From a virus: a stretch of DNA of 36,874 nucleotides. The notes beneath the pieces were generated by a model. That model was not told the origin of the DNA. It was given only the letters and a program-made list of their open reading frames with translations, and searched no databases. Shown here in pieces: positions 3,356-36,465 of this stretch. Each line of letters opens with the position of its first letter. Within the stretch, counting starts at the first letter, position 1. The DNA lies in the IMG/VR virus record IMGVR_UViG_3300017730_000033, positions 1 to 36,874 of that record; one strand, given 5' to 3'. The translations under genes were made by a program, and so were the position numbers.

Positions 3356-3949
3356 TTACAAACTGTTGGCGAATCTCTTCATAGTCACATTTATTCTATA
3401 TCCAAATATTCTTGATTTTTTGTCATTAGCGTCAGTTCGGCTTCCTAATACGAGATGTTTAATGTTTTCTTCTAAACTTCCTGCACTTCGGAACCAGCCC
3501 CTTCGGTTTGTTTCAATGATGTATCGCACTATCTTATAAAGGTTTTCTATTCTATCTCTACCAAAAGTAGAACCCGAAGGTGCAACTCTCGCATTATCAT
3601 TTGTTCGCCTATCATCTTGTTTTGTTCTAATTGAAATAGACATTTCGTGAGTTTCGTTTCTTACAGACCAATCACGAGTAGGATATTCCACAGTTTGAGA
3701 GTTTTGCATTACTGCAATAACATCTAAAGAAGGTGTAGTATTATCCCCAGCAGTTTCTCGTGCGGCACTAATTCTTACTCTATTACCACCTCTTCCGGGT
3801 TTTGTAGTATTGCGAGCAGAACTCATATCTCGTATATCCATAATTTGTGGTTTAACTCTATGAATTGCAGGAATAGCAGAACCTAATGCTATTACGGCAG
3901 TTTCCCAATATTCATCAAGTAATGTAACTAAATATGTAACTTCATCCAC
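3356..3949 (-). CDS. Tail terminator / tail completion candidate
   Basis: A 197-residue protein apparently starting with GTG 3949-3947; no in-frame ATG lies near, and the frame overlaps the end of the upstream tagged gene by 8 nt. A purine-rich GGGGGAGAAG tract lies about 6 nt upstream. The N-terminus is helical (YLVTLLDEYWETAVIALGSA), followed by strands with VRISAARETAGDN and EMSISIRTKQDDRR, and the protein ends FGYRINVTMKRFANSL. This helix-plus-sheet layout with a C-terminal strand resembles gpU-like tail terminators, which cap the tube. Position just before the tail tube gene supports this. No motif proves it; a neck protein is the main alternative. Confidence 0.5.
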   Translation of the reverse strand: MDEVTYLVTLLDEYWETAVIALGSAIPAIHRVKPQIMDIRDMSSARNTTKPGRGGNRVRISAARETAGDNTTPSLDVIAVMQNSQTVEYPTRDWSVRNETHEMSISIRTKQDDRRTNDNARVAPSGSTFGRDRIENLYKIVRYIIETNRRGWFRSAGSLEENIKHLVLGSRTDANDKKSRIFGYRINVTMKRFANSL

Positions 3950-5129: not shown

Positions 5130-5332
5130 TCAAACGCCTCCTCAATTCTTCTTTGAATAACTTGGACAACTTCTTGTTCGATAACCTGTTCCATTATCTC
5201 GTCGCTCATTTTTTCACCAAGAGTTCTCTCAGTGTAATCTTGTATGTCTTCATTTTGCTGAACGACGGTTTCTAAAATACTTTCCATGTCGAGTTGAACC
5301 AAACGCATCTTTTCTAAAATTTTACGGAACAT
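5126..5332 (-). CDS. Small acidic helical protein with weak tag
   Basis: I place the start at ATG 5332-5330 (MFRKILEKMRLVQLD), giving 68 aa. A GAGG site lies 8 nt upstream, and this start limits overlap with the preceding gene to 11 nt. An upstream in-frame start at 5404 would overlap that gene by 83 nt with no better site. The N-terminus M-F-R-K-I-L-E-K resembles the recurring tag with Phe for Trp (hydrophobic-x-x-I-L-x-K). The rest is Gln/Glu-rich and probably one or two amphipathic helices. The stop overlaps the next gene start as ATGA. Function unknown. Confidence 0.62.
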   Translation of the reverse strand: MFRKILEKMRLVQLDMESILETVVQQNEDIQDYTERTLGEKMSDEIMEQVIEQEVVQVIQRRIEEAFE

Positions 5333-6059
5333 CTTTACGACCTCGTTTTCCTCTTGTAGGTTTAATATTTGATACAGAAAACTTCTTTCTTTTTCTTTCC
5401 GCAAGTAAATCCTTTAATTTATCTGCCTTTTTCTTTGCCTTAGCACCCAATTTAGCCGCTTCTTCTAAATTTAAATTTCTAGGTAATTCTTCTTCCGGAG
5501 GGATTTCTTTGGGAACTAACATCGCTCGTTCTTTATCCCAATAAGAATCAGGATTAGCGGCTTCTAATTGACGAATATTTTCTTTTTCGGTAAGTTCTTC
5601 CTCTTCCTTTTCTCTTAAATCGTATTCTTCTATTTCTTTTTCATAGATTTTTTCAACTTCTTCCGAAATTCTTCTTCTTAAATCAAATTCATTTCTTACA
5701 GTTTCTGTATCATTCATAATAACATGACCTTCCACATTTGTAAATACATAGTTTCCATCATCTTCGACAAAATTTACATAAACATATCTTCTATCTCCTT
5801 GCCCTGAACGAAAAGAAATATTAATAGAAGTTTTAATACCAACAGTATTTCCATCAACTATTCTTACATGAGTTTTACGACCATTAATATCATCAGGAAC
5901 TACTGCATCGAGTGTATTTCTTAAATTTCTTTTAAATTTTTCCCAATCTCGAAGTATTAATCTTTCTCCCGATTCAGTACGAAGTTTTTCAAGGTCTTTT
6001 TCAAGGTCTTTTTCAATCTTTACACTGTTTCCTTTGGCTTTAATAATATCTTCCCACAT
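5322..6059 (-). CDS. Tagged charged protein of unknown function
   Basis: A 245-residue protein starting MWEDIIKAKGNSVKI: the tag in its short form, with Trp at position 2. The ATG at 6059-6057 follows GGTGATTTAA, a usual binding site in this window. Residues about 45-125 look like an alpha/beta domain with strands VDGNTVGIKTSINISF and RRYVYVNFVEDDGNYVFTNV. Residues about 140-235 are a long Lys/Glu helix or coiled coil (YEKEIEEYDLREKEEEELTE). The tail is basic (TRGKRGRKDVP). No known family is evident. It sits in the second tagged cluster, between genes that also carry the tag. Confidence 0.75.
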   Translation of the reverse strand: MWEDIIKAKGNSVKIEKDLEKDLEKLRTESGERLILRDWEKFKRNLRNTLDAVVPDDINGRKTHVRIVDGNTVGIKTSINISFRSGQGDRRYVYVNFVEDDGNYVFTNVEGHVIMNDTETVRNEFDLRRRISEEVEKIYEKEIEEYDLREKEEEELTEKENIRQLEAANPDSYWDKERAMLVPKEIPPEEELPRNLNLEEAAKLGAKAKKKADKLKDLLAERKRKKFSVSNIKPTRGKRGRKDVP

Positions 6060-6064
6060 TTAAA

Positions 6065-6388
6065 TCACCAATCCTTACAAGCCATACATCGGGGGGAATA
6101 ATCGGAACCGGTACAAGTGCTACATTTATGTCTTGCGTTAAAAGATTTTTTACGCTTAGTATTTCCACTCTTTCCCGTAACCTTAACTCCTGCTTGACCC
6201 CAATGAACTCTCTTGTATTTTCCCTTTTTACCTGCGGGAACACATGCCATCCATTTTTTACCTTTACGATTAGAAGATGTTTTGCCTGTCCTCTTAGTGC
6301 ATCTACCGGACTTGGCCTTTTTTCTTTTCTTACGGGCCTTCTTACCTCTTCTACCGGACTTTCTTTTTAGAATATCTTCCCAGCCCAT
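6065..6388 (-). CDS. Tagged basic Cys-containing protein (marine-virus ARHKC domain)
   Basis: The start is ATG 6388-6386 with AGGAGTGAT upstream, giving 107 aa that begin MGWEDILKRKSGRRGKK; a longer frame upstream lacks a site and overlaps the previous gene. A highly basic linker (residues 9-45) follows the tag. The second half reads RVHWGQAGVKVTGKSGNTKR, then KKSFNARHKCSTCTG and SPRCMACKDW. I recall similar (S/F)xARHxC...CKxW domains in many uncultured marine phages, of unknown function. The Cys pairs could bind zinc, and the basic tract could bind nucleic acid. Fusion of the tag to a basic domain fits a DNA-associated virion-interior protein, by inference. Confidence 0.8.
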   Translation of the reverse strand: MGWEDILKRKSGRRGKKARKKRKKAKSGRCTKRTGKTSSNRKGKKWMACVPAGKKGKYKRVHWGQAGVKVTGKSGNTKRKKSFNARHKCSTCTGSDYSPRCMACKDW

Positions 6389-6392
6389 AGTA

Positions 6393-7286
6393 TCACTCCT
6401 CATCTTCGTATAAATAATAGTCACCAAACTCATGTCTTGCCAACCAATCATCATGGTCCATCGCATCGCTAATAACATACTTTAATGTTCTTTCTTTGAA
6501 TCCCCTATATTTTTCTCCGGCATCAATAAAGTTTTGCATACCCGCCGCACCACCTTCATCTTCTAATACCTTTTTAATAAATTTAACATAGGTATTGTAT
6601 TGTGCGTTTCTTACAGCAGGTACTTTAGCCTTAGCGACTTCCTTACCATCACAACCACAACCGCAACCAGAATCCATATCTTCTATATCATCATCTTCAA
6701 TTTCTACATTCGTTTTAATACCGGGGAATCTTCTATTAAATTCTCTAATGTCTTTTTTAGTTCTTGCCGGTTTTCCTTCAGGAGTTTCCATTAAAATATG
6801 TTTAATCTTATCGGAAAGTTTGTTGCTAACCGCAAATTCATTATCAGCAACAGCACTATCAATGTCTTCTTCCATTTCCGGAGTTAATTTTTTATGTTTA
6901 GGTTTAGGCTCCCAACCCTTAGATACAATTTCATCAAAGTTATATTCCTTCATTGTGGAATTGCGAGTATATCTTTTACCTCTCCCCATTTGTTCATAGT
7001 CAACAATACCAGCATTATAACACATTAAACCTCCCTTTTGGCCTACTTGAGCGGGTCCTCTATGTTTTAAATAGCCACCTATCCCTCCTGTTTGCATTCC
7101 CCTTGATAAACTAAAATGTTTTAAGGCGAATGATTTTATTTGTTCAAATGGTTCTCCCATACTCAATTCCTTAAAAGATATAACCGTTCCTTCGGGTATA
7201 TTATCGTTAACATATTTAAGAATACCATATTTAATAGAAGGGGTAAATTTTACCGTTCTCGATTCCTTTAATACTTCTTTCCACAT
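6393..7286 (-). CDS. Tagged protein with CGCGC motif, unknown function
   Basis: I choose ATG 7286-7284 (MWKEVLKESR, 297 aa) rather than the in-frame GTG 9 nt upstream, because this puts the tag at the N-terminus and the ATG directly follows the adaptor stop (TGA-T-ATG), suggesting coupled translation. Residues 10-130 contain a Gly-rich segment with RGMQTGGIGGYLKHRGPAQ. Residue 208 starts an unusual C-G-C-G-C motif in an acidic stretch (DDDIEDMDSG), a possible metal site. The C-terminal 70 residues form a helical domain (YNTYVKFIKKVLEDEGGAAG) ending acidic. I do not recognise the family. Confidence 0.75.
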   Translation of the reverse strand: MWKEVLKESRTVKFTPSIKYGILKYVNDNIPEGTVISFKELSMGEPFEQIKSFALKHFSLSRGMQTGGIGGYLKHRGPAQVGQKGGLMCYNAGIVDYEQMGRGKRYTRNSTMKEYNFDEIVSKGWEPKPKHKKLTPEMEEDIDSAVADNEFAVSNKLSDKIKHILMETPEGKPARTKKDIREFNRRFPGIKTNVEIEDDDIEDMDSGCGCGCDGKEVAKAKVPAVRNAQYNTYVKFIKKVLEDEGGAAGMQNFIDAGEKYRGFKERTLKYVISDAMDHDDWLARHEFGDYYLYEDEE

Positions 7287-8376: not shown

Positions 8377-10802
8377 TAAATTACTCTCCTTAATCTTTGT
8401 AGTTTATCGTCTATATTATCTATAAACTTTTTTCTGTCTTCATCCACAGCCTTACCGGATGAAACAATTTTTTTACCCTCCAATGTAATATTATACGACC
8501 TAACTTTGCTGGCTTTATCGGTTTGACTTCTTTTTTTCTGTGCAGTAGAATATAAATCTCCACCTCCAACTCCTATGTTAAAAATTAATTTAACTTCGTG
8601 TGTTTGTTTATATGTAGAATTAACTTTAATTATATCTTTAGTAGAAGAATCTACAACAGTAATTTTAAAATTAATTTTTCCTGCTGAAGACCATTTTGTA
8701 GCCTGTCCCCATTTGCGAGTATTAGTTTCGTTATTAGTAATAGTGTTAATAATTAAATCCACTATTTTTTGTTGAGATGGCTTTTCGCTATTAGGTAAAA
8801 AAGAAATAATTTTATTTCTTATTTGTTTTTTGGAAAGAGATTTTTTATTTTTAGTTTTTTCGGTCCTATTAAAAATTTGCGACAATGAAACTTTAATATT
8901 GTCAATATCTTCACTAACCAAAACTCCTTTATTTTCTTCCCTTTCATTTATAATTCTGTCATAACTATTTTTAAATCTCAAGACATTTTCAACCAAAGCC
9001 TCTTCATGTTCCAAATCTAAAAAGGTTTCAATATAGTTTTGTATTTCTTTTAATGTAAGGGGTTTTTTTATATTTGTGCTAAATTGTTTTAAACATTCTT
9101 CGAGAGTATCTATAATTCTATCTAAATCCATTTTATCATTGTCACTTAAATCGTCTTCCTGTAAAGAATTTTCATAAGTAGAAAACATTTCAATAATTTC
9201 TTCTATACCGTCTTTTAAATTCTCAAACTTTTCATTAAAGGTTTCATTGTTTTTGTTTGATAAATTAGTAATCACATTTTCTTTATCTGAAAGTAATTCA
9301 GTAATACCTTCCTCTAAACTTTCTTTGATATTTTCAAATGATGATTCTTGAATTTCTATTGAATCGCTTTCTTCTTCGTCTTCTTCATCTTCTTCGTCTT
9401 GTGGATTTTGAGAAATTAAATTATAAATTTTTTCAATTTCATCCATACTTAACGAAAGGGTGTTAGCGGCTTCTATAACATTTTTAATTTTATTAGAAAA
9501 TTGATTAGGGGGTACTAATTGAGCCATAAGTATATCAACTTCATCCGAAGTCTTAACTTGGGTTTCTGTTAGTACAGGTATTTCATCAAAGTTTTCATGT
9601 GTAGAAGTAGAAGTTATTAAATTGTAAGGTGACCTTCCTGCTCTAATTTTAAAATTCTTATCAGCAAGTTTCCATTCACCAAATCCTGTTTCCATCGAAT
9701 ATTTTCTACCCTGTGTAGAAATTTCATCGGAATAATTTATCTTAGAGTTAGTTAAAAATTCTTCTATGGCTTCTCGTAATACTTGCAAATCGACTGTTTC
9801 CTTTCTATCTAAAATTTGTCCTCTTTGTGTTTCCACCAAAGAATTAGGAGGTTTTAACTCATCAATATATTGTTCTATATCTGCTATGTGTGTATCGGGT
9901 AATGTTAATAATTCTTGTAATTTTTTATTATCAATTTCATCATCTTCGGTAGCCGCCCTTTCTCTATCGGCTTTAACCCACTTTCTTGCTAATAATTTTA
10001 AATATGTTTTCCACTTAATCGGGTCTGCCCCTGCAATAATATTTAAAAATTCATAAAAGTTTTGGTCGTCCATATTTTCAACTTCAATTTTTCTCGATGA
10101 TGGTAGATATTTTAAATCATTTTCTTCGAGCCAATTAGATATAATGTACCCCCATCTATTTTCTTGAGCAGGAGTAAGAGTCATATCCTGTCTAAGATTA
10201 AAAAATTCTTCAGGATATTCGGAATCAATACCATCTAAAGTCCTGTAAATGTCCCTTAATTTTGCTTGCATAAAACCCTGTCTAACTTGTTCCGAAGCAA
10301 ATGCTTCCTCAGCAACATCATTACCTTTTGGATTTTTAAATCTTGAAGTTTTCCCAACTACTCTTGAAAGTTCACCAAGAATTTTACCTCTTTGGTTAAT
10401 TTTTTCATAGGCGAGTTCTCCTAAACCCTCCCTTACAGCATCATTTTCTAAATCTAATACTGTAAAAAAATTCGTAACTTCATTATCAAGAACATCTTGT
10501 AAAGTGTAATCACTTTCTTCTTTGTTTAATTCTTCACTTATCCTTTGTCTTACATCGGGTTCGTATAAAGTGTCTAATTTTATTTTTAAGGTATCTTCCA
10601 AAGCAGTTTGATTTATTTTATCAAATTCTTTATCATCATAATTTATTAACTCTAAAGTGTCTTCGTGGTTTGTGCTGATAAAATCAAGATAGTTGTCTCT
10701 ATTGATTTCACCCATTAGATACTCCATCATTAACTCTCTTGCCAATGCTACTGTATATTTAGTATTAGTGACATTGTTTTCAAATGCTGGTATATTTGTC
10801 AT
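8376..10802 (-). CDS. Large acidic helical protein of unknown function (808 aa)
   Basis: The protein starts MTNIPAFENNV after a GAGGTGG site. It is mostly alpha-helical and rich in Glu, Asp, Asn and Lys, with an acidic run DEEDEEDEEES near residue 475 encoded by an imperfect GAA/GAC repeat. The last 160 residues differ: strands with KINFKITVVDSSTKDIIKV and HEVKLIFNIGVGGGDLYSTA suggest a C-terminal alpha/beta domain. No enzyme motif or transmembrane segment is visible. It lies between capsid accessory genes and the adaptor, where ordinary phages have short connector genes. It may be a structural or internal virion protein; function unknown. Confidence 0.7.
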   Translation of the reverse strand: MTNIPAFENNVTNTKYTVALARELMMEYLMGEINRDNYLDFISTNHEDTLELINYDDKEFDKINQTALEDTLKIKLDTLYEPDVRQRISEELNKEESDYTLQDVLDNEVTNFFTVLDLENDAVREGLGELAYEKINQRGKILGELSRVVGKTSRFKNPKGNDVAEEAFASEQVRQGFMQAKLRDIYRTLDGIDSEYPEEFFNLRQDMTLTPAQENRWGYIISNWLEENDLKYLPSSRKIEVENMDDQNFYEFLNIIAGADPIKWKTYLKLLARKWVKADRERAATEDDEIDNKKLQELLTLPDTHIADIEQYIDELKPPNSLVETQRGQILDRKETVDLQVLREAIEEFLTNSKINYSDEISTQGRKYSMETGFGEWKLADKNFKIRAGRSPYNLITSTSTHENFDEIPVLTETQVKTSDEVDILMAQLVPPNQFSNKIKNVIEAANTLSLSMDEIEKIYNLISQNPQDEEDEEDEEESDSIEIQESSFENIKESLEEGITELLSDKENVITNLSNKNNETFNEKFENLKDGIEEIIEMFSTYENSLQEDDLSDNDKMDLDRIIDTLEECLKQFSTNIKKPLTLKEIQNYIETFLDLEHEEALVENVLRFKNSYDRIINEREENKGVLVSEDIDNIKVSLSQIFNRTEKTKNKKSLSKKQIRNKIISFLPNSEKPSQQKIVDLIINTITNNETNTRKWGQATKWSSAGKINFKITVVDSSTKDIIKVNSTYKQTHEVKLIFNIGVGGGDLYSTAQKKRSQTDKASKVRSYNITLEGKKIVSSGKAVDEDRKKFIDNIDDKLQRLRRVI

Positions 10803-13281: not shown

Positions 13282-13905
13282 TCAGTTGTATTTGTCCATT
13301 AATTCGTGAACTTCGTTCCATGACATTTCTGAAATGTTACCAAAGTCCTCACTAAGTTGATTGGACACAGATTGAGTTTCTGCGGCCTTAGCGATTGTGT
13401 TGTTCTCAAGAGACTTCTTCAATTGAGAAAATTCTTCCTTAAGAGAAAGAACAGCATCTGCGGCATTAAACTTGCTCTTAGCAATTTCGTCTGCTTCAAC
13501 TGCAAGTTCGTTCTTATATCGGGCTTCAAATTCAGCCTTGATAACCTCGTAAGCACGAGCCTCTTCTCTTTCAGCCTTAAATTGTGTATAAGCCTTTTCA
13601 ATATTTTGTCGGGAAAGGTCGAGTGTATTAATTTCCTCAGCCTTATGTTCAACAAATTCCACAAAATCCTCGGACTTTGCTTCCTTGTCTTCATAGTCTT
13701 CTTCCTCAACATCATCATCTTCCGATTCTGCCTTCATTTCTTCGCCAGCCATTCGCTCGACGGACTCCTCTTCCATTTCATCCATCATCTCAAGTTCTTC
13801 CTCTTGTTCAAGAGTGTCCATTGTATTCTTGAGAACCGTGGATTCACGGAGTTCAGCCATTACTTCATTAAACTCATTTAGAGCCTTTTCAATTTCTGTA
13901 TTCAT
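13282..13905 (-). CDS. Nested in-frame scaffold protein (Nu3-like)
   Basis: An internal ATG at 13905-13903 begins the scaffold domain alone (MNTEIEKALNEFNEVMAELR, 207 aa). AAGGAGGATA lies 7 nt upstream, one of the best binding sites in the window, although it is inside the protease-scaffold coding sequence (encoding NLIKEDKK). This strongly suggests the scaffold is made separately and in excess of the protease fusion, as lambda Nu3 is within gene C. The product is a coiled coil rich in Glu and Lys. Its C-terminal helix, ISEMSWNEVHELMDKYN, may contact the capsid lattice, as scaffold C-termini often do. Confidence 0.82.
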   Translation of the reverse strand: MNTEIEKALNEFNEVMAELRESTVLKNTMDTLEQEEELEMMDEMEEESVERMAGEEMKAESEDDDVEEEDYEDKEAKSEDFVEFVEHKAEEINTLDLSRQNIEKAYTQFKAEREEARAYEVIKAEFEARYKNELAVEADEIAKSKFNAADAVLSLKEEFSQLKKSLENNTIAKAAETQSVSNQLSEDFGNISEMSWNEVHELMDKYN

Positions 13906-14442
13906 TTTTTTATCCTCCTTAATTAGATTAAATTTTGCTTCAGGGTTTATACCCTCTTCGCATATGGTGATTTCATGCAATTCAAGTTTATCAATTTCCT
14001 TATAACTACCGGTATCGGCATCATATCTGTTTGTCTTGTTTATCGCTTGTCCACCTATTGAAAAGGAACGAAGGTTGCCCTTTCTTATATCTCGTGCAAC
14101 CTCTTTAGCCTTTTCAATATCATTTCTTAATTTTATCACTACAAAAAACCCTGTATCATCAACGCCTGTTTTTAGGACTTTACCATTGGAATCTGTATAT
14201 TGGTCTACAACCTCTCCGACCTGAACATTTGAATGTGTAATCATTACATTTCTATAACGGTCTTGCTTCATAAATTTATCAGCCGCTTCACGAATTGCAC
14301 CTAATGTAATTTTGTCATTTTGCTTATCCACTACATCAACTGATGCGTAGCCAGCAATAACACATTCGTTATTTGACTTAAGAATTATAAGTTCTCCGCC
14401 GCTATTTGGTTCATTACCAAACATAGGAGTTTCTAATTGCAT
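13282..14442 (-). CDS. Prohead protease (S78-type) fused to scaffold
   Basis: A 386-residue protein. Residues about 15-175 form an HK97-family prohead maturation protease: ECVIAGYASVDVVDKQNDKI, catalytic His70 in VMITHSNVQVGEV, Ser128 in RSFSIGG, and the closing strand LELHEITICEEGINPEAKF. Residues 180-386 are a Glu/Lys-rich coiled-coil scaffold with an acidic block (DDDVEEEDYEDKEAK). The end reads MSWNEVHELMDKYN, echoing the cargo tag. The protease would cleave scaffold and probably other prohead proteins on maturation. No strong ribosome site is seen at ATG 14442; the scaffold part also has its own internal start. The arrangement matches lambda gpC/Nu3 logic. Confidence 0.9.
   Translation of the reverse strand: MQLETPMFGNEPNSGGELIILKSNNECVIAGYASVDVVDKQNDKITLGAIREAADKFMKQDRYRNVMITHSNVQVGEVVDQYTDSNGKVLKTGVDDTGFFVVIKLRNDIEKAKEVARDIRKGNLRSFSIGGQAINKTNRYDADTGSYKEIDKLELHEITICEEGINPEAKFNLIKEDKKMNTEIEKALNEFNEVMAELRESTVLKNTMDTLEQEEELEMMDEMEEESVERMAGEEMKAESEDDDVEEEDYEDKEAKSEDFVEFVEHKAEEINTLDLSRQNIEKAYTQFKAEREEARAYEVIKAEFEARYKNELAVEADEIAKSKFNAADAVLSLKEEFSQLKKSLENNTIAKAAETQSVSNQLSEDFGNISEMSWNEVHELMDKYN
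13911..13920 (-). promoter_or_regulatory. Internal Shine-Dalgarno for nested scaffold start
   Basis: The minus strand reads AAGGAGGATA, seven nucleotides before ATG 13905-13903. It is inside the protease-scaffold reading frame and stronger than the site at that frame's own start, so it decides the internal initiation call. Confidence 0.82.
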
Positions 14443-16580: not shown

Positions 16581-17000
16581 TCACATCTCGTCACTTGGAG
16601 TTAATGCTTCTTCCTCACCTACTGTCAAGGTGTGTTTAAGTCGCTTTAATTTTCCTAATGCTGTTTCTAAAGCCGCCTCAGCATCATTATCTTGTGAATC
16701 CGGAGCATCATCAACAGACTCAACTCTCACTTCTTCTGCATCAGGTTCTGCCTTATAGGTCATATTATCCGGCATTAATTTATTTTGGTAATTTCTTTTA
16801 ACTAAAGAATTTCCCTTTGTAATTGGTTTAGCCGCCAAGCGTTCAACATCAACTTGCTTTCCAGCCTTTTCATCTTTTTGTGCATCTGCTGGTTCATAAC
16901 CTAATGCGTTTGTAAGTAATACCGTAAGTTCGGTTAGTTGTGTTAAAACTTCTGCACCTCTAATATCTGCATCGTCGGCTATCATTTTTTCTTTGCTCAT
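16581..17000 (-). CDS. Small acidic protein of unknown function
   Basis: A 139-residue protein starting MSKEKMIADDADIRGAEVL after a GGAGGG site; its start overlaps the preceding stop as ATGA. Residues 10-40 are probably a helix (EVLTQLTELTVLLTNALG). The middle is Lys-rich and possibly disordered, and residues 85-110 are acidic (RVESVDDAPDSQDNDAEA) before another helix (LETALGKLKRLKHTL). No family is recognised. Its small size and place among head genes suggest a morphogenesis or minor head component. Confidence 0.62.
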   Translation of the reverse strand: MSKEKMIADDADIRGAEVLTQLTELTVLLTNALGYEPADAQKDEKAGKQVDVERLAAKPITKGNSLVKRNYQNKLMPDNMTYKAEPDAEEVRVESVDDAPDSQDNDAEAALETALGKLKRLKHTLTVGEEEALTPSDEM

Positions 17001-17233
17001 ATTGTTCCCTCCAAATTTTTCACAAGTGAATCTAAATCACTCCAATCCATCTTTGAAATTACATCACCGTTTGGCATACCTGCTTGGGTTTTTGCACTCG
17101 GTCTTGGACTTCGGACAAATCCAGCCTTCATAATTGCCGTGTCCGAGTCTTCTAATTTTCTCTCTAAATCCTTAACCTTATCGGACAGGGCCTTCAATAT
17201 TTCTAAAATTTCAATTGTTGTTTCTTCTTCCAT
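16997..17233 (-). CDS. Small coiled-coil protein with tag-like C-terminus
   Basis: A 78-residue protein with start ATG after GAGGAGGAAT. Residues 3-32 are a coiled coil (ILEILKALSDKVKDLERKLE). A Pro/Arg-rich linker follows (FVRSPRPSAKTQAGMP). The C-terminus reads MDWSDLDSLVKNLEGTI, a Trp-acidic amphipathic helix resembling both the cargo tags and the scaffold end. Small coiled-coil proteins in head operons can be scaffold or assembly factors. Function unknown. Confidence 0.68.
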   Translation of the reverse strand: MEEETTIEILEILKALSDKVKDLERKLEDSDTAIMKAGFVRSPRPSAKTQAGMPNGDVISKMDWSDLDSLVKNLEGTI

Positions 17234-23764: not shown

Positions 23765-25138
23765 TTATTCCTCCTTAACAATAGAATCCATTTCGTTCAT
23801 CAATTCCCATTTACAATTATCCTTATATTTTGAAATGTTGTCTACTTGTATGTCATATTTTTCAAACTCAACAGCACCTTGATTACGAGCGTCCTTCCAA
23901 TTTTCCCACTTAATAAGTTTAAAAATTTCTACCATTCTATCCTTTGCCCACGGTTCTTTTTTATAGAATTTTTTAATCTTGATGGCTTCTTGTAAAAGTC
24001 GCCCTTGTTCCTTTTTCATTCTTAGATGAGGTAGGCACTTATCTAATAGTTTTGTAATATCATTTTGGCTATAAAAATTTAATCTATGTTGACTACGGCT
24101 ATTTTCCCCTACCTTTTGGTCTAAGTGTAGGCGACCAATTTTAAGTTCTTTTTCCATTTCTTGAAAAAATGCTCGACCTCTATCCCCTGTGGCAATCATA
24201 CCAACACGGGGAGAATAAGACGAATCCATAGTAATATAACCATCCGAGTCAATAAACCCTGCTACATATCCATAAAGGTCCTTTTTAATTTCATCACTAA
24301 GAATGTAATAATTTCCATTTACATTGGTTGCATTAATTTTTCTTAGCATTTTAGAAATAGTCTGAGGAGTTGTAGAACGATGATAACTTTTAGGCATCAT
24401 AGAATGAATAGCGTTGCTGGAAATACCGGGATTATTACATATTGTTTTAATTATTAAATTATCCAAAACTTCCTGCCTTGACTTGCGAATTGCCTGATGA
24501 GATATTTCTTTTAAAATGGACCTGATGCTTTTTTTACTTTCCTTGAATACTTTTGTGTAATCAGCATATTCTTTACCATAATCTAATTCATTCTTAAAAA
24601 TATCGGCTTCCCACATTTTAACCAAATTGTCAATAATTTCTTGGCGTTGACTTCCATCCTTAATATGTTCTAATTTCCTCAATGTGACTAAATCGGGAGT
24701 AAGCATCTTAACTGCTGATTTATACGGAGAAAGCCAATATACAGAATCAATGCACTTATTCAAATGGTCACCATAAGCATTGATAAGATGGTCAATAGTT
24801 TTACTCATTTTCATTCTTGTGTCACCCTTTAATTTTCTACGCATATTTCTTAAATCTTTAACAATGTCCGGTATAGACTTATTATCAATAAGAGGTTCTT
24901 CGGGAAATGAGGAAAGCATATTTCTCGCATCAGTTAGATTAACTGAATAAATTTTAGAAATATCTTTAATTACTTCAGTTTCGTCAAATGACTGATACGG
25001 AAGCCATTGGCTAAGTTTAATTTCCCCTAACAAATTTTCTTTCTTTTGTTTTGCTTCTCGCTGTGCTTGGTCTAATTCTTCCAACTTTCTACGAAGTTCA
25101 TTTGTGTCAATTTCATCTTCCTTACATATTAATTCCAT
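23765..25138 (-). CDS. Winged-helix plus LAGLIDADG-type protein
   Basis: Start chosen at ATG 25138-25136 (MELICKEDEIDTNELRR, 457 aa) with GAGGTGG 5 nt upstream; an earlier frame start lies deeper in TerL. Residues 1-40 are coiled coil and 45-215 helical. Residues 222-280 look like a winged helix (LDNLIIKTICNNPGISSNAI; TPQTISKMLRKINA; NGNYYIL). Residues 289-301 (YGYVAGFIDSDGY) match the LAGLIDADG homing-endonuclease motif, followed by beta strands and IGRLHLDQ...HRLNFYSQND and LLDKCLPHLRMKKEQGRLL. One LAGLIDADG copy implies a dimer if it is nuclease-active. It may be a free-standing homing enzyme, or a domesticated packaging partner between TerL and portal. Confidence 0.75.
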   Translation of the reverse strand: MELICKEDEIDTNELRRKLEELDQAQREAKQKKENLLGEIKLSQWLPYQSFDETEVIKDISKIYSVNLTDARNMLSSFPEEPLIDNKSIPDIVKDLRNMRRKLKGDTRMKMSKTIDHLINAYGDHLNKCIDSVYWLSPYKSAVKMLTPDLVTLRKLEHIKDGSQRQEIIDNLVKMWEADIFKNELDYGKEYADYTKVFKESKKSIRSILKEISHQAIRKSRQEVLDNLIIKTICNNPGISSNAIHSMMPKSYHRSTTPQTISKMLRKINATNVNGNYYILSDEIKKDLYGYVAGFIDSDGYITMDSSYSPRVGMIATGDRGRAFFQEMEKELKIGRLHLDQKVGENSRSQHRLNFYSQNDITKLLDKCLPHLRMKKEQGRLLQEAIKIKKFYKKEPWAKDRMVEIFKLIKWENWKDARNQGAVEFEKYDIQVDNISKYKDNCKWELMNEMDSIVKEE

Positions 25139-26537
25139 ATATACCACCTCCGAAATCTTGCCTTGAGGGACTTCCAAATAAGCCCCCTCCATCTATGTCT
25201 ATGAAAGCATCATTAAAAGACTTTGTGGCGTGATTAGCCAATGCGAGCGCAATAACAATATCATCGTGTGCGCCTAATCCTTCAATTTTTCCCGTACTGC
25301 TAATACCGAATGCTTCAAGTTCTTGTATAATTGAATCCGAAACAGCCTTTGCCTTTTCATCCGCATAGGGTAATATAATTTTATCATTTTCTAAATTCAT
25401 TTGCAAGTTAAGAATAATTTCTTCTTTCTTCTTACGGTGCATAGTAAATTCCTTAACAGGAAAATCAGATATATCACGCAGTTCCATAGCAAAAGACTTG
25501 GCAAATGTATTAGTTTCAATCATTACAACTTCGGGTTTATATCTTTCACAAAGGTCTGTAATGCGTGTGATGTGTGAACGAAAATCCATATTTTTTTCTC
25601 TTACCATCCATACCACCTTTTTATTCATATCTTCATCTACTTCTATAACCATCATCACTGTGTAGTCGCCGTCTGCTGAAAGTGAAGGGTCGTAACCAAT
25701 GTAGTATTTGAATGCCTCAGTATTACCATGATAAGACAACTTACTTGTACGGTCTTTAGACTTGTCGATAAATTCCTTTCCAAATAACATCGTATTGGAT
25801 GAAATTGGTATGCAAAGATATTCTCTTGTAAACTTAGAAGAACCGATTTCTCGCCTTCTCTTTTCTAAAGAATCTATATCCCAACGGGAAGGCCAAAGAG
25901 CATCACCTGTTTGATTTATTGCTGGATAGCGTTGCACATCATATTCAGGGTTTTCCTCCAATGCGGCGAATATATCAGTATATGTGAAAGGTGTGCCGAC
26001 CATCCGTAAAGTAGCGGTGTGGTGGAGAGTAGGAATCATGTCACCCCAAAACCAATCTGTAACTCGCTGTATAGCGGCTACGGAGAACTCCTTCATAGGG
26101 TCGTCAATAATAATCTCTTGAGGGTGAAGTCCACGAATCTGTGAACCAACGGAACGCTCAAGTATTTCATTCCCGTTTGTTAATCTCATTGAACCGACAG
26201 CCCAACCTGCTTTAGGTTTGTATTTTCTTAGGGCAGGAATGTTTGTGAACATTCGGTCAATATCTTTCATGTGAACCATTGTCTGTTTTTGGTTTGATGA
26301 AATGTAAATCATTTGATATGGTGGAGGCTGAAAAATTAATTGGTAGATACACCAAGAGTGAAAGAATACAGACTTTCCGTGGTCACGGGAACAAATGATT
26401 ACAGTTCTTTGTGTGTCGTGAACTGATTGTAGCCAATCACGGTGAAAGTCTGCCATTTCCATTCCAAGAATTTTTGTAAAGAAATATTCAAAATTACCAT
26501 CGGAGGCTTTCATATCCATTTCTGTGAGTAAATCCAT
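25122..26537 (-). CDS. terL: Terminase large subunit
   Basis: A 471-residue ATPase-nuclease. The ATPase domain has a Walker A variant at 49-56 (CSRDHGKS), coupling strand QMIYISSNQKQ, Walker B EIIIDDP (141-147, with Asp145 and Asp146) and MVGTPF as the motif III region. The nuclease domain shows Asp283 in IGYDPSLSADGDYTV, Glu341 in VVMIETNTF, and HDDIVIALALA (Asp425/426) for metal binding. It pumps viral DNA through the portal into the prohead and cuts concatemers. Start MDLLTEMDMK follows CAGGAGGAAC. The C-terminal 40 residues are Gly-rich (IDGGGLFGSPSRQDFGGG). The upstream neighbour is a tagged repeat protein rather than an obvious small subunit. Confidence 0.96.
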   Translation of the reverse strand: MDLLTEMDMKASDGNFEYFFTKILGMEMADFHRDWLQSVHDTQRTVIICSRDHGKSVFFHSWCIYQLIFQPPPYQMIYISSNQKQTMVHMKDIDRMFTNIPALRKYKPKAGWAVGSMRLTNGNEILERSVGSQIRGLHPQEIIIDDPMKEFSVAAIQRVTDWFWGDMIPTLHHTATLRMVGTPFTYTDIFAALEENPEYDVQRYPAINQTGDALWPSRWDIDSLEKRRREIGSSKFTREYLCIPISSNTMLFGKEFIDKSKDRTSKLSYHGNTEAFKYYIGYDPSLSADGDYTVMMVIEVDEDMNKKVVWMVREKNMDFRSHITRITDLCERYKPEVVMIETNTFAKSFAMELRDISDFPVKEFTMHRKKKEEIILNLQMNLENDKIILPYADEKAKAVSDSIIQELEAFGISSTGKIEGLGAHDDIVIALALANHATKSFNDAFIDIDGGGLFGSPSRQDFGGGIYGINM

Positions 26538-32295: not shown

Positions 32296-32643
32296 CTATC
32301 CCTCCACTCTTTCGTAAATAGTTTCTTTTTTTCCCGATGGTAGTTTTTTTCTTCGGGTAGTATGACGATGAACCCCTAGATTATTAATAATCCTACCAAA
32401 AAATCCCGCGGCTCTACCACGGGTTCTAAAAACTGTTGTAGCATGACGCTCGGCATGGGTAGGATTAGTATAAATGCCATCCCTAAGTAAATACTCTTTA
32501 TATAATTCTTGTGCAAGTGGTAAAATTTCCGGAAGAGTAAATGTGTTTAGGGAAGCCGAAGCGGTTCCGAGGGCTTCTCTAAAAAGAGACATATTAACTT
32601 TTACTCGACCTCCACCCCTTTTTAATATGTCTTGCCAAGTCAT
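32296..32643 (-). CDS. Tagged small basic protein, unknown
   Basis: A 115-residue protein starting MTWQDILKRGGGRVKVN, a near-consensus tag, after AAGGAGGAAGGG. The Gly-rich hinge at 10-12 separates the tag from a body with a helix (LPEILPLAQELYKEYLLRDG) and a His/Arg-rich part (NPTHAERHATTVFRTRGRAA; NLGVHRHTTRRKK). The basic, His-containing C-terminus suggests nucleic-acid contact. Its start overlaps the PAP2 gene stop (ATGA). No family recognised. Confidence 0.75.
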   Translation of the reverse strand: MTWQDILKRGGGRVKVNMSLFREALGTASASLNTFTLPEILPLAQELYKEYLLRDGIYTNPTHAERHATTVFRTRGRAAGFFGRIINNLGVHRHTTRRKKLPSGKKETIYERVEG

Positions 32644-33539
32644 TTTCCCTTCCTCCTTTTGTAAGTTTTACAAGCCGCACAAGTTGGGCGGCATCTTCTC
32701 TTTCTACCCTTTGAAGCGTCTTTTCTTCCACAAGGTTTAGGTCCGTTTTTCTTTCCACATGAAGAACAGTCAATCCATCCTCCCTGTGTTTTCTTTCCTT
32801 TACCTTCCTTTCCACCTCTTCGAGAGAACCACCCATGTAAGCCTTCTGACTTCTCTCTCTTAAAGTTATCGCCACTTCGACGCTTTTTCTTCTTATATTT
32901 CTTAGAAGACTTTTTACGACGAGCCTTACTTTTCTTTTGTAAAATATCTTCCCAAGATTTAGAAATATCCAAATACGCATCGGCAAGCATAAGTCCTACT
33001 TTTTTACCTGCTTCTATATCACTTGGGTAATGATTTCCCATTTGAACACGGGAGAGAGAAATTGAATCTGCCATAGTATTAAGTTCTTTTTTCTTATCGG
33101 GATATTTCTCACCGAGAACTTTAGCCAACGCATGTGCTTCAATAGCGTGGCCGCTTGGAAAAGAAGGTGTATCGTCTGTATTTGTCACAGACTTAATTTT
33201 ATCCGAGATTTCATATGGTCGCTTTCTACCGTATTTCATTTTAAGTCGTATGGTATGAATGTCCACATCTTCTATAAAATCTTCCCATTCGGACATTTTT
33301 TCACCAACAATGTCGAGCAACATTTTATGGTTATTTTTATCTAAATCGTTAATAGTTTTTTTATCTAAGTCTTGACCTTCCATGATTTTTAGAACCTTTG
33401 GTAGTTCCTCTTCGTTATCGGGAAATGAAAGTTTAGGAATGTCTACTTCAAAAGAAGGTTCGGAATCGAGAAGTTTTTGCTTACTCGCAGAAAGACTGTT
33501 CATCCATTTGGATTCTTCCTTGAGTATTTCCCGCCACAT
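32640..33539 (-). CDS. Tagged PAP2-family phosphatase fused to second tag and Cys-rich basic domain
   Basis: A 299-residue fusion; start at ATG 33539-33537 places the tag MWREILKEES first, and a longer upstream start would overlap the previous gene. The PAP2 acid-phosphatase signature is complete: K100-x6-R107-P108, P128-S-G-H131, and S163-R-x5-H170-x3-D174. No transmembrane helices are visible, so it looks soluble, unlike most lipid phosphatases. Residues 194-202 repeat a tag (KSWEDILQK), followed by a highly basic tract and a domain with HGWFSRRGG, GGWIDCSSCG, KPCGRKDASKGRKRRCRPTC and CAACK. I recall that last domain from other marine and algal viruses. The enzyme would remove phosphate from a small or lipid substrate. 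Confidence 0.88.
   Translation of the reverse strand: MWREILKEESKWMNSLSASKQKLLDSEPSFEVDIPKLSFPDNEEELPKVLKIMEGQDLDKKTINDLDKNNHKMLLDIVGEKMSEWEDFIEDVDIHTIRLKMKYGRKRPYEISDKIKSVTNTDDTPSFPSGHAIEAHALAKVLGEKYPDKKKELNTMADSISLSRVQMGNHYPSDIEAGKKVGLMLADAYLDISKSWEDILQKKSKARRKKSSKKYKKKKRRSGDNFKREKSEGLHGWFSRRGGKEGKGKKTQGGWIDCSSCGKKNGPKPCGRKDASKGRKRRCRPTCAACKTYKRRKGK
32934..32960 (-). other. Internal copy of the cargo tag within the PAP2 fusion
   Basis: Residues 194-202 of the PAP2 fusion read KSWEDILQK, matching the M-G-W-E-D-I-L-K-R start of the gene at 6388 apart from the initiator. It lies exactly between the PAP2 domain and the basic Cys-rich domain, as though two separately tagged genes had been fused. 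It also marks the domain boundary and a possible protease site. Confidence 0.8.
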
Positions 33540-33543
33540 GTTA

Positions 33544-33771
33544 TCACTTCTTTTTTGAATTACCCCAATTAGCCGCACCCTTTTTACGACATTGGACTAA
33601 AGCACCGGAAGCGTAGGCAGAAGGCCATTTTTTATAACGACTTCTTACTTTGCGATAACAAGCGTCTTTCTTGGTCTTGGATTTCTTTTTCTTTCTGCCT
33701 TTTTTCTTAGCCTGTTTTGAACCCTTCTTGCGGCGAGACTTACTTTTCTTACGCAATGTATCGAACCACAA
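33544..33771 (-). CDS. Tagged small basic protein with marine-virus WPSAYASGA domain
   Basis: A 75-residue protein starting MWFDTLRKKSKSRRKK, a tag with Leu-Arg for Ile-Leu. Residues 8-34 are almost entirely Lys and Arg. The C-terminal 40 residues (ACYRKVRSRYKKWPSAYASG then ALVQCRKKGAANWG) match a small domain that I remember as common in marine phages, cyanophages and algal giant viruses; its function is unknown to me. The basic linker suggests DNA association. Its stop lies 5 nt before the PAP2 start. Confidence 0.85.
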   Translation of the reverse strand: MWFDTLRKKSKSRRKKGSKQAKKKGRKKKKSKTKKDACYRKVRSRYKKWPSAYASGALVQCRKKGAANWGNSKKK

Positions 33772-33780
33772 GTTAATCCC

Positions 33781-34005
33781 TCAGTCTAATTTTGTTGGAA
33801 ATCCCCTTGCTCGTGATTGTTCCTTTTGCTTCATAGGGCAACTTGGTCTTGCTGGATATTCTTTCAAGTTTAATGGACACATACTGTATAGAACAACACT
33901 TTCTTTACATCTTGGACAAACACCTGTTTTCTTAACACCTTCCGATAAACTTCTCTTTTGGGCATCGCTAAGGTCTTGTTGTTTTACAATATCTTTCCAT
34001 GTCAT
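33781..34005 (-). CDS. Tagged zinc-ribbon-like protein
   Basis: The start ATG 34005-34003 (MTWKDIVKQQDLSDAQKR, 74 aa) follows AGGTGA at a 5-nt gap; an in-frame GTG three codons upstream lies within that site. The tag is followed by a short helix, then Cys30, Cys33, Cys43 and Cys56 (GVCPRCKESVVLYSMCP; RPSCPMK), a plausible zinc-binding set with unusual spacing. The tail is basic. Function unknown. Confidence 0.76.
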   Translation of the reverse strand: MTWKDIVKQQDLSDAQKRSLSEGVKKTGVCPRCKESVVLYSMCPLNLKEYPARPSCPMKQKEQSRARGFPTKLD

Positions 34006-34020
34006 AATAATCACCTAATT

Positions 34021-34266
34021 TTAAACGGGGTTTTCTTCCATCATAATTAAACTTAAAGCACGAAGGGGGGAAATTTTCTCCCTACTTGCTCGGCTCATTG
34101 CTCTTTGTAATTGGTCTTCGCTGGCGTTAAAGAATAGAATCTTGTCTACAACCATTTCAATTACATCTTGTGTAATACCGTAATCGTGAAATAGAGTTGC
34201 TGTAATAAAATCCCTCGGCCCCATTGTCATTAAACTTCGTTTTTTAATCTCGTCTTTCCATGTCAT
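34021..34266 (-). CDS. Tagged small helical protein
   Basis: I start at ATG 34266-34264 (MTWKDEIKKRSLMTMG, 81 aa), which overlaps the upstream stop by 4 nt; an earlier in-frame ATG would overlap the upstream gene more. The tag has Glu-Ile-Lys in place of Ile-Leu-Lys. The rest is helical (ITATLFHDYGITQDVIEMVV; EDQLQRAMSRASREKISPLR) without Cys. Function unknown. Confidence 0.7.
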   Translation of the reverse strand: MTWKDEIKKRSLMTMGPRDFITATLFHDYGITQDVIEMVVDKILFFNASEDQLQRAMSRASREKISPLRALSLIMMEENPV

Positions 34267-34469
34267 TCTTTCACACTCCATAAGTTTGTCCATAATTTAT
34301 GTCTTTCGTAATTCTCTTCTAAATAGTCGATAACCTCATCTTGCGATGGTGCGTTATAACCAAGACTGTTCGTAAGATGTTTATAAATGTTTTCAAATAA
34401 ACTGTCTTCCGTAATATAAGAATCAAGCATTTCACGCCAATCAAGTTTAAGTATATTTTGCCATGTCAT
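34263..34469 (-). CDS. Tagged small acidic helical protein
   Basis: A 68-residue protein starting MTWQNILKLDWREMLDSYIT, a consensus tag immediately followed by a second Trp-containing helix (DWREML). The remainder is helical and acidic (YNAPSQDEVIDYLEENYERH) with further Trp near the end (LWTNLWSVKE). The stop overlaps the next start (ATGA). No family recognised. Confidence 0.73.
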   Translation of the reverse strand: MTWQNILKLDWREMLDSYITEDSLFENIYKHLTNSLGYNAPSQDEVIDYLEENYERHKLWTNLWSVKE

Positions 34470-34473
34470 ATTA

Positions 34474-34941
34474 TCAACCCCTTATACTATGAATATCCAT
34501 ATATGTTCTTAAAGCAAATCTTACTTCTTCGATAAGACGAGATGTATCTCCGAATATTTCCATAAAAACCTTAAAAATATTAAAATACATTCGGGGTGAA
34601 TCAACGGGTTTTCCTCTATGCAGGTCATCGAGCATTTCTGCAATTTGATTTTCTGCTAATTGTTGTTGACCTCTAAATCCACCAACTCTATCCAATAATG
34701 TTTTATTAGTATTGCTTTTCCAATTCAAATGATGGTTTTTAAAATCTCTAATTGTTAATTTTCTACCTATCGCTTCTTCAATATCTTCAATATCCATAAA
34801 TCTATCACCTTCGGTTTCTCCTAATATTCTACCTCCGGCTTGTCTGTATATATCATCGTTGACTAAAAAGGTATCTTGACCGTGTAATCTTTCAGGTGTT
34901 TCTTCATTAGTTCGCACCTTTAATATATTTTCCCAACTCAT
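34474..34941 (-). CDS. Tagged protein, unknown (155 aa)
   Basis: Begins MSWENILKVRTNEETPERLH; the first 23 nt of the gene are identical to those of the gene starting at 36261. The body is mixed, with GQDTFLVNDDIYRQAGGRIL, an acidic helix (FMDIEDIEEAIGRKLTIRDF) and a C-terminal helix bundle (MYFNIFKVFMEIFGDTSRLI). The front half resembles small domains found in chromatin-like or histone-fold-sized proteins only superficially, so I assign no function. Its start overlaps the preceding stop by 4 nt. Confidence 0.74.
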   Translation of the reverse strand: MSWENILKVRTNEETPERLHGQDTFLVNDDIYRQAGGRILGETEGDRFMDIEDIEEAIGRKLTIRDFKNHHLNWKSNTNKTLLDRVGGFRGQQQLAENQIAEMLDDLHRGKPVDSPRMYFNIFKVFMEIFGDTSRLIEEVRFALRTYMDIHSIRG

Positions 34942-35297
34942 GTATATTCCTCCCTTACCGCTAAGGCTTCACTAATTTTATCAATCAATCCACCGACAGT
35001 TGCATAAAATAAAGTATTACCATCTTCAAAGGCTTCATCATGTCCCTCATCTTCTGTAAATTGGTCTTGCTTTTCACCAATTCTTTTCATTAGTGTTCGT
35101 AATACTCCTTGAGTTCTTGGTTCGGAATACATAGGACTTTCTAAATAATCTCTTAAATTAAATATAATACCTATAACTGAATTTGGTTGGTTCACATTAC
35201 CGATATAACGAGGTGGAAAGTATTCTACGATTTCTCTACGCAGGTCTTCAAACATAGCCGGTAAGTCGTCGTATTTTAAAATGTCTTGCCACTTCAT
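34938..35297 (-). CDS. Tagged protein, unknown (119 aa)
   Basis: Begins MKWQDILKYDDLPAMFEDLR, a consensus tag. Helical segments (VLRTLMKRIGEKQDQFTEDE; YATVGGLIDKISEALAVREE) flank a Pro/Tyr-rich stretch (VEYFPPRYIGNVNQPNSV). Its ATG shares a base with the stop of the metalloprotease gene, a sign of translational coupling. No known domain. Confidence 0.73.
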   Translation of the reverse strand: MKWQDILKYDDLPAMFEDLRREIVEYFPPRYIGNVNQPNSVIGIIFNLRDYLESPMYSEPRTQGVLRTLMKRIGEKQDQFTEDEGHDEAFEDGNTLFYATVGGLIDKISEALAVREEYT

Positions 35298-35917
35298 TAT
35301 TCCACCTGCTCTCTTCTTACAAATGAAGTCGCTATTCTATCTATGAGAGGATTTAAAAGTTCTACAAGTATGGTTTCAACATATGAATATCTTTCATCAT
35401 TCATTTCCATAATCCTTCTAATTGCCCTTGTTCTTTGAGTAATATCTTGTATCATAGTATTTACTAATTTAATTCTAAATTGTCTATCATCTAAATTATA
35501 AGAAGTTGAATATGCTTGTATTTCTATCGTTAAAAGCATTTCAAAATACATCTTAAGATTTCTTTCCATTTCGGGTTGCAGTTCTCTCCACAACGCTATA
35601 AAATCTTCATGTTCTAATACCTCTATATCTATGTTATTTATCTGTGATATAAATTCTATAAAAGTGGCCGAAGTTTTTTTTGCTGTTTCAATTAATTCTG
35701 GTTCCGTATTATATTGCGCTTGATGAGTTGTTTCATGTGCTAATGTGTTCGCTATTTTTTCGGGAGTTACATTGGGATTAGGTGAAATATTTATTGAATC
35801 AGTCCTATAATCATAAGTACCATCGGCTGTTTTATCAGGTCTTAGTTTAATATTAGGTGCAGGTCTATCACGGTCTACCGGTTTGAATTTAATTTTTAGA
35901 ATGTCAAACCAACTCAT
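35297..35917 (-). CDS. Tagged zinc metalloprotease (HExxH)
   Basis: A 206-residue protein starting MSWFDILKIKFKPVDRDRP. After the tag and a Pro-rich linker comes a short beta region (TYDYRTDSINISPN) then the active helix KIANTLAHETTHQAQYN with H61-E62-x-x-H65, the zinc-binding and catalytic motif of gluzincin-type peptidases. Glu132 in the later helix IEIQAYS is a candidate third zinc ligand. The last 70 residues are helical. No signal peptide is visible, so it acts in the cytoplasm or inside the virion. It may process virion or host proteins; the substrate is unknown. Confidence 0.82.
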   Translation of the reverse strand: MSWFDILKIKFKPVDRDRPAPNIKLRPDKTADGTYDYRTDSINISPNPNVTPEKIANTLAHETTHQAQYNTEPELIETAKKTSATFIEFISQINNIDIEVLEHEDFIALWRELQPEMERNLKMYFEMLLTIEIQAYSTSYNLDDRQFRIKLVNTMIQDITQRTRAIRRIMEMNDERYSYVETILVELLNPLIDRIATSFVRREQVE

Positions 35918-35931
35918 GCTAATCTACCCTA

Positions 35932-36261
35932 TTATTCTACTTGACTATCTTCCGAAGCAATTCTTGAAGAAATTAGTTCATAAAGTTCATTTACTAAGTC
36001 CCCTCTTTCTAAAGAAGTTTCAAACATTCTGTTTGCGATTTGATATTCCCTTGAACTTTTATCATCTTCAAAGGCTCTCTTGACATGGTTCATAAAAATA
36101 TACATTAAATTATTATCGTGAACGCTACCTTTAGGGTGTTTTTTTCCACTCATTACAGCCATAAACCAATCATAAAATTCTCTTACTGATTTATTCATAT
36201 ATTCATCCATTTTAGGGTCACCTTCATACACATCTCTTTTTAATATATTTTCCCAACTCAT
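35932..36261 (-). CDS. Tagged helical protein, unknown (109 aa)
   Basis: Begins MSWENILKRDVYEGDPKMDE, the most typical tag form. The body is helical with aromatic residues (SVREFYDWFMAVMSGKKHPK; NLMYIFMNHVKRAFEDD) and an acidic C-terminus (LVNELYELISSRIASEDSQV). It has no Cys and no enzyme motif. It is separated from both neighbours by only 12-14 nt. Function unknown. Confidence 0.75.
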   Translation of the reverse strand: MSWENILKRDVYEGDPKMDEYMNKSVREFYDWFMAVMSGKKHPKGSVHDNNLMYIFMNHVKRAFEDDKSSREYQIANRMFETSLERGDLVNELYELISSRIASEDSQVE

Positions 36262-36273
36262 TGTAATCTCTCC

Positions 36274-36465
36274 TTATCTTGGACTATCTATTGATTCTGT
36301 GCCTTCATCTTCAGTATATCCACATTTAGTACAATATGAAACTTCGTCTTTACCTGTTAGTGAAGCCGCTTTATTAGGAAAAGTAGTCATCATTTTTGAA
36401 CCGCATCTTGGGCATTCTTTATCCCCGTAAAAGGGTTTATTTTTTAGTATATTTTTCCAATTCAT
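36274..36465 (-). CDS. Tagged zinc ribbon protein
   Basis: A 63-residue protein, MNWKNILKNKPFYGDKECPR at the start. Cys18-x2-Cys21 (CPRCG) and Cys45-x2-Cys48 (CTKCGY) form a classic zinc ribbon like those in archaeal transcription and translation factors such as TFIIS-type proteins. The C-terminus is acidic and short. Its ATG overlaps the upstream stop (ATGA). It could bind nucleic acid or RNA polymerase; there is no evidence for which. Confidence 0.8.
   Translation of the reverse strand: MNWKNILKNKPFYGDKECPRCGSKMMTTFPNKAASLTGKDEVSYCTKCGYTEDEGTESIDSPR

Follow-up and report, generated by a model that had tools for sequence, protein, structure and literature searches.

A viral phosphatase gene formed, in all probability, by fusion of two tagged genes, and a short peptide tag that may direct proteins to the head of a marine tailed virus

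The gene at 32640-33539 of the viral DNA studied here is almost certainly a fusion of two separately tagged genes, to judge from comparison with its relatives. It encodes a PAP2-family phosphatase with a short peptide tag at its N-terminus and a second tag where the enzyme meets a basic Cys-rich domain. The whole stretch that was analysed (36,874 nucleotides, IMG/VR record IMGVR_UViG_3300017730_000033) is referred to as the window. The tag, with consensus M-x-W-x-x-I-L-K, is common to a large and varied set of proteins in this virus and its relatives, and by analogy with the capsid targeting sequence (CTS) of T4 its function is most likely that of a head-targeting signal. Comparison of sequences establishes the fusion origin of the gene, the modularity of the tag, its conservation at the level of the peptide, its location on the structural strand and its co-segregation with the head module.

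The fusion gene is read from an ATG at 33539 to a stop codon at 32640-32642, and has the following parts.

32640-33539, minus strand: double-tagged fusion gene (tag, PAP2 phosphatase, tag, basic Cys-rich domain), 299 aa
33519-33539, minus strand: N-terminal tag MWREILK, of low confidence in the AF2 model
32982-33245, minus strand: PAP2 catalytic region, residues 99-186, with three motifs; best match in sequence and fold 7f17/7f18
32937-32960, minus strand: internal tag KSWEDILQ, residues 194-201, at the fusion junction
32877-32936, minus strand: basic linker KKSKARRKKSSKKYKKKKRR, common to the standalone protein of L016 and missing from the fusions of L001-L005
32643-32876, minus strand: basic six-Cys domain (GDNFKREK..LHGWFSRRGG..C..C..CGRKDASKGRKRRCRPTCAAC), which in relatives also occurs alone and tagged

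The phosphatase matches PF01569 (PAP2) over residues 99-186 (E=5.8e-13; 49.2 bits against a curated cut-off of 27.2) and its motifs are complete: K-x6-RP at 100-108, PSGH at 128-131 and SRx5Hx3D at 163-174. The highest 19-residue hydropathy is 0.56, which points to a soluble enzyme devoid of a membrane helix; the same scan found no hydrophobic segment that might mark a signal peptide. The last 105 residues are 39% Lys plus Arg, contain six Cys and carry a net charge of +33. An earlier note, made from the DNA letters alone, had described a soluble PAP2 enzyme with all three motifs and an N-terminal tag, joined to a basic Cys-rich C-terminal domain, and these measurements agree with it on each count. 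It had also placed a second tag at the join: the tag is present, but as KSWEDILQ at residues 194-201 and not as KSWEDILQK at 194-205. In the AF2 model the PAP2 core is confident (blocks up to pLDDT 97) while confidence is low at residues 1-11 and 196-262; as modelled, therefore, both tags behave as flexible linear motifs.

Evidence that the gene is a fusion came from 17 related viral loci, read as open frames. The same union of PAP2 and Cys-rich domain is present in L001-L008. In L010, L011 and L012 the PAP2 half stands alone with its own N-terminal tag (MSWMDILK or MNWMDILK), and in L014-L017 it is the Cys-rich half that occurs without a phosphatase, again tagged at its N-terminus (MSWKEVLK, MTWQDILQ, VSWKEVLK); further standalone tagged copies of this half are found in L028, L031, G006 and G008. 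The junction itself is telling. The standalone protein of L016 starts with MTWQDILQKKSKARRKK, which is nearly identical to the internal tag plus linker of the window, and its first 28 residues, MTWQDILQKKSKARRKKGSKKYKKKKRR, match the window junction, KSWEDILQKKSKARRKKSSKKYKKKKRR, almost letter for letter. The claim that two tagged cargo genes had been fused, and the proposal that their halves be sought as separate tagged genes in relatives, are thus borne out for both halves. The same boundary without a tag is absent: every homologue keeps a tag-like string between PAP2 and the Cys-rich domain, degenerate in four of them.

Gene order suggests how such a fusion might come about. In each compared locus that has a Cys-rich gene, the window among them, the start of the following gene lies within the stop of that gene (ATGA), and the last codons of PAP2 in L011 and L012 contain the start of the tagged gene that comes next. 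Because tagged genes overlap in these two loci, a small frame change could join two of them with the second tag at the join. We envisage that the fusion arose from two neighbours in a tandem array of tagged genes with overlapping ends, merged by such a change at the overlap, and that the second tag would have stayed where the two were joined. The gene next after the Cys-rich or PAP2 gene is tagged in all but one of the 17 loci and its protein varies among relatives. The slot following the Cys-rich gene (32296-32643 and its equivalents in L001-L017) holds varied tagged genes and looks like a site of cargo exchange. Other tagged genes of the window lie on both sides of the structural module.

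33544-33771, minus strand: upstream tagged basic gene (MWFDTLRK..DACYRKVRSRYKKWPSAYASGALVQCRKKGAANWG), fused before PAP2 in G003, G007 and G009
32296-32643, minus strand: downstream tagged gene (MTWQDILKRGG..), whose start overlaps the fusion stop (ATGA)
33781-36465, minus strand: further tagged genes, beginning MTWKDIVK, MTWKDEIK, MTWQNILK, MSWENILK, MKWQDILK, MSWFDILK, MSWENILK and MNWKNILK
5322-7286, minus strand: tagged genes beyond the other side of the structural module, beginning MWEDIIK, MGWEDILK and MWKEVLK
3942-5129, minus strand: a second double-tagged fusion, with start MTWFDAIYKK and internal INTWQSILK (4806-4826) at residue 103

The tagged protein at 35297-35917 (MSWFDILK) has a HETTHQ motif and weak SprT-like or metallopeptidase matches, and is possibly a second packaged enzyme. 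The tagged basic protein at 6065-6385 matches DUF5754 below threshold and is distantly related to a protein of Roseobacter phage CRP-3. The protein encoded at 23765-25192, between terminase and portal, has a LAGLIDADG-like stretch (YVAGFIDSDGYI) and may be what remains of a homing endonuclease.

Fusion is not peculiar to the phosphatase. A G001 homologue of the gene at 3942-5129 starts at the position of the internal tag (MIWESILK), and a G009 gene (76053-76904) bears the tags MSWEDILK and KKSWENIIK; the second half of its product shares 93% identity with a G010 protein (4686) that is standalone and tagged. A rearranged Cys-rich domain comes after PAP2 in G003, G007, G009 and G010, at a junction whose tag has drifted (KSWEEKIFK, KSWEDFIFK, KSWEGIIFK and KSWEDQLSK, respectively). 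In the first three of these genomes a homologue of the upstream basic gene (33544-33771) is fused in front of PAP2, and at that junction the PAP2 tag is gone (GNSVKKSESKW); the unfused PAP2 of G010 begins MWQLILKKESKW, with its tag kept. Drifted and lost junction tags beside intact starts indicate that internal tags may persist, degenerate or disappear, whereas the one at the N-terminus is retained in every case. Throughout the nine fusions of group A the internal tag has the same W, I and L, despite synonymous changes. The ratio of nonsynonymous to synonymous change in this group is 0.32 for the internal tag and 0.31 for the N-terminal tag (a weak comparison, with six codons); given their similarity, the internal tags of group A may have a role of their own. 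The notion that the internal tag is a purely neutral fossil finds no support in group A, given its retained W, I and L; in group B the tag drifts. Two rearrangements are seen elsewhere. The L014 gene at 9506-9940 resembles that of L015 at 4026-4283 with a piece inserted between tag and Cys-rich domain, and retains a decayed second tag as an SLLK remnant (SLLKGGDNF). The Cys-rich domain is permuted, with the LHGWF part after the Cys part, in L009 (10001-10822) and in the G007, G009 and G010 homologues.

The tag extends well beyond this gene. In its strict form, W-x-[DEKNQS]-[ILV]-[ILV]-[KRQ], it occurs 15 times on the coding strand of the window and not once on the other. A survey of this type-1 tag in ten relatives (G001-G010, near-complete or partial) and the window found 177 tagged proteins in 88 sequence clusters. 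The core consists of W (100%), I at +3 (79%), L at +4 (81%) and K at +5 (94%), and the profile of the 177 proteins holds little information beyond W+7. At internal positions the 11 tagged genomes have 16 tags of at least 16 bits – two or three of them mis-called start sites – where reversed proteins give 0 and shuffled proteins 0.4. The codons at conserved tag positions vary, which argues that selection acts on the peptide; a signal at the level of translation or DNA is ruled out by the same variation. The view of the tag as a mobile module, put forward in the earlier note, accords with its presence on proteins of so many clusters and with the differences between relatives in the tagged gene downstream. 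Among 82 cluster representatives PAP2 is the sole clear enzyme family, accompanied by a few weak zinc-ribbon and DNA-binding matches. In the part of the literature that we covered we found no description of a WxxILK tag.

The placement of tagged genes is equally uneven. The structural strand carries 176 of the 177 tagged proteins (the remaining one is a doubtful match), compared with about 53-65% of open reading frames of at least 100 aa. Tagged genes flank the head and tail genes, and the family B polymerase (PolB) is on the opposite strand. A second type of tag, M-x-x-F-[DN]-x-A-W-x-x-L-K (FDxAWxxLK), is present on several proteins of a related clade of viruses (L145, L149 (G013), L153 (G012) and L064-L090), and in the loci scanned is never found together with WxxILK. 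Head clade 1 (45 loci) has 53 type-1 tags and 0 of type 2, and head clade 2 (25 loci) has 0 of type 1 and 12 of type 2; many loci within a clade are near relatives, which means that the tags counted do not stand for independent events, and the contrast is one between two clades. The type of tag follows the head module, and thus fits a tag that is read by a head protein.

A single account can be given of these data, in which array neighbours fuse, the tag targets the head, the Cys-rich domain binds DNA and the phosphatase is ejected, and as a whole we think it rather probable. During prohead assembly a head component – a capsid or scaffold protein – would bind the flexible N-terminal tag, and the protein so bound would be carried inside the head before DNA is packed. 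Packaged DNA would be the ligand of the basic Cys-rich domain, and on ejection the phosphatase would leave together with this DNA; early in infection the enzyme may act upon phosphorylated small molecules or lipid carriers. Packaging, ejection and substrate are what we infer, and that the phosphatase is virion-borne is plausible by analogy and from indirect evidence. No WxxILK-type tag was found in HVTV-1, which has a related capsid protein; the signal is therefore not general to this capsid lineage.

A critical issue is whether something other than entry into the head would account for the tag. The tag could direct proteins elsewhere in the infected cell – to a site of replication or assembly, a membrane or a shared partner – and the fact that most tagged families have no assigned function is compatible with this. 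Yet tagged genes lie on the structural strand by head and tail genes, opposite those for replication; tag type tracks the head module; and the tag has three hydrophobic residues only, with acidic or polar residues between them. Such targeting appears improbable to us. The earlier note raised another option, that the tag is a protease recognition site separating the domains. The fusion would then be a polyprotein in which the prohead protease (peptidase S78) separates the phosphatase from the Cys-rich protein when the head matures. The window does encode a prohead protease (PF04586, E=2.8e-12), the targeting sequences of T4 are themselves removed by the head protease (PMC5694885), and the junction is flexible in the AF2 model, with W, I and L kept in group A fusions. 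Nevertheless no conserved prohead-protease cleavage site follows the tag in the 177 tagged proteins, where nothing is conserved past W+7, the junction between basic domain and PAP2 has lost the tag that the unfused G010 protein keeps, and the tag after PAP2 has drifted in the four genomes named above. The sequences thus speak against this option, which we regard as unlikely and would give little credence. Less credible still is that the phosphatase is an ordinary auxiliary metabolic gene (AMG) that serves host metabolism during infection. By sequence and fold its closest solved relatives are the class A acid phosphatases 7f17/7f18 (for 7f17, sequence E=8.6e-11 and fold E=3.8e-6). Enzymes of this class are periplasmic and have signal peptides. 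The window protein shares the PAP2 catalytic motifs of the class A non-specific acid phosphatases (PhoN); unlike them it lacks a signal peptide, starts with a viral tag and is fused to a basic Cys-rich domain. PhoN is listed among the AMGs of magroviruses, under riboflavin metabolism (PMC10160649), and the window phosphatase is probably the "PhoN" so reported. Against a metabolic role stand the tag, common to dozens of non-metabolic proteins, the position of the gene in a cargo array on the structural strand, its DNA-binding-like partner domain and the missing signal peptide. Tag and fusion argue for virion cargo over a plain metabolic gene.

If head targeting is correct, the tag might dock where the scaffold's C-terminal peptide (MSWxE[VI]) normally binds, and cargo would thus mimic scaffold. 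This would be a special form of head targeting, and concerns two motifs of the head module.

13285-13326, minus strand: C-terminal motif MSWNEVHELMDKYN of the prohead protease-scaffold (gene 13282-14442), kept in all homologues read
17000-17050, minus strand: similar C-terminal motif MDWSDLDSLVKNLEGTI of a 78-aa head-module protein (gene 16997-17233)

Tag and scaffold motif have in common the core [ST]-W-x-[DE]-[IV]. All 57 of the 57 complete protease-scaffolds read end in the Trp motif, M[ST]Wx[EQ] or a close variant (MDWSDIHK in G004), and the second small head protein, 78 aa long in the window, ends in MDWx[DE] in most genomes. Motifs of this kind, MSWxEVH or MDWxDL, are conserved in the two head-module proteins of nearly all relatives. 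But the tag profile gives the scaffold motif about 2-4 bits, compared with 15-24 for true tags; where ranked, the motif comes 28th of about 30,000 positions, with a score due mostly to its Trp, and it has no counterpart of the conserved L-K. Clade 2, moreover, keeps the scaffold motif yet has a different cargo tag (FDxAWxxLK). The likeness is suggestive, a weak lead, and docking of this kind seems to us a tentative idea that is rather unlikely to be right. Similarly doubtful is the broader conception of a lineage-specific packaging code, in which a short scaffold-mimicking N-terminal peptide would admit to the head dozens of interchangeable proteins, some of them enzymes. Each of the two tag dialects (WxxILK and FDxAWxxLK) would evolve in step with its own head module, and adjacent cargo genes would merge repeatedly into cargo with several domains and several tags.

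Should the tag prove to be a packaging signal, many uncharacterised proteins of abundant marine viruses would become candidate virion cargo for delivery to cells upon infection, and a gene published as a metabolic AMG would be reclassified. T4 capsid targeting would gain a counterpart among viruses of archaea, and the tag could serve as a transferable peptide with which enzymes are loaded into shells of HK97 type. Fusions that recur with a tag at the junction are a natural record of multi-domain viral cargo born from tandem tagged genes.

The virus is a marine head-tailed virus, with archaea as its probable hosts. Its capsid protein shares 26-28% identity with the capsid proteins of HCTV-1 and HVTV-1. 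Like the magroviruses (Magrovirales, viruses of Poseidoniales) and Druskaviridae, its group has genomes of 90-100 kb with low GC, a family B polymerase, structural genes on the strand opposite the replication genes and an HCTV-1/HVTV-1-related capsid protein; it agrees with magroviruses in genome size, composition, PolB and the opposition of the gene clusters (PMC10768690). No MCM, PCNA or TFIIB profile rose above cut-off in 11 relatives, where these proteins may be divergent; among Magrovirales an MCM helicase and a sliding clamp are described for Aobingvirus, in contrast to the lack of matches over cut-off here. Genome bins were set aside as a guide to the host, since capsid relatives fall in bins of both Altibacter and Maricaulis and the bins disagree.

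Parts of the cargo have counterparts in phages of bacteria. More than 360 records of marine phages, almost all of them cyanophages, contain a domain with 74-86% identity to the upstream basic domain (33544-33771; DACY..WPSAYASGALVQCRKKGAANWG); among the proteins that contain it, that of S-E7 carries the annotation structural. These matches suggest that the DACY domain is a virion module transferred between viruses of very different hosts. The phage proteins with this domain also contain an LHDWF/Cys-rich module resembling that of the PAP2 fusion, and both types of module are likewise joined in Flavobacterium phage immuto, which indicates that they tend to travel together in virus proteins. The GC119 proteins of T4-like cyanophages are like those described here in uniting DACY..WPSAYASGA (74-86% identity) and LHDWF/Cys-rich modules in one polypeptide; unlike them, those examined have neither a WxxILK tag nor a PAP2 domain, and their genes lie near terminase and neck genes or within other cassettes.

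As regards the tag, encapsulin cargo-loading peptides offer one parallel: a short linear peptide brings an enzyme into a shell of HK97 fold (PMC8346489). The setting here differs in being a tailed virus with scaffold, protease and DNA, in the N-terminal position of the peptide and in the many cargos per genome, and binding of the tag to the shell is putative. T4 provides the other parallel, diverse internal proteins of that phage sharing only the capsid targeting sequence that takes them to the scaffolding core (PMC3012670; PMC5694885). WxxILK seems to differ in sequence from the T4 CTS and shows no conserved cleavage site, and the present virus, unlike T4, has an HK97/SU10-type head, an S78 protease and a probable archaeal host. 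What the two systems have in common is a short N-terminal peptide on diverse small, often basic proteins of a large tailed virus, together with a rapid turnover of the cargo that bears it.
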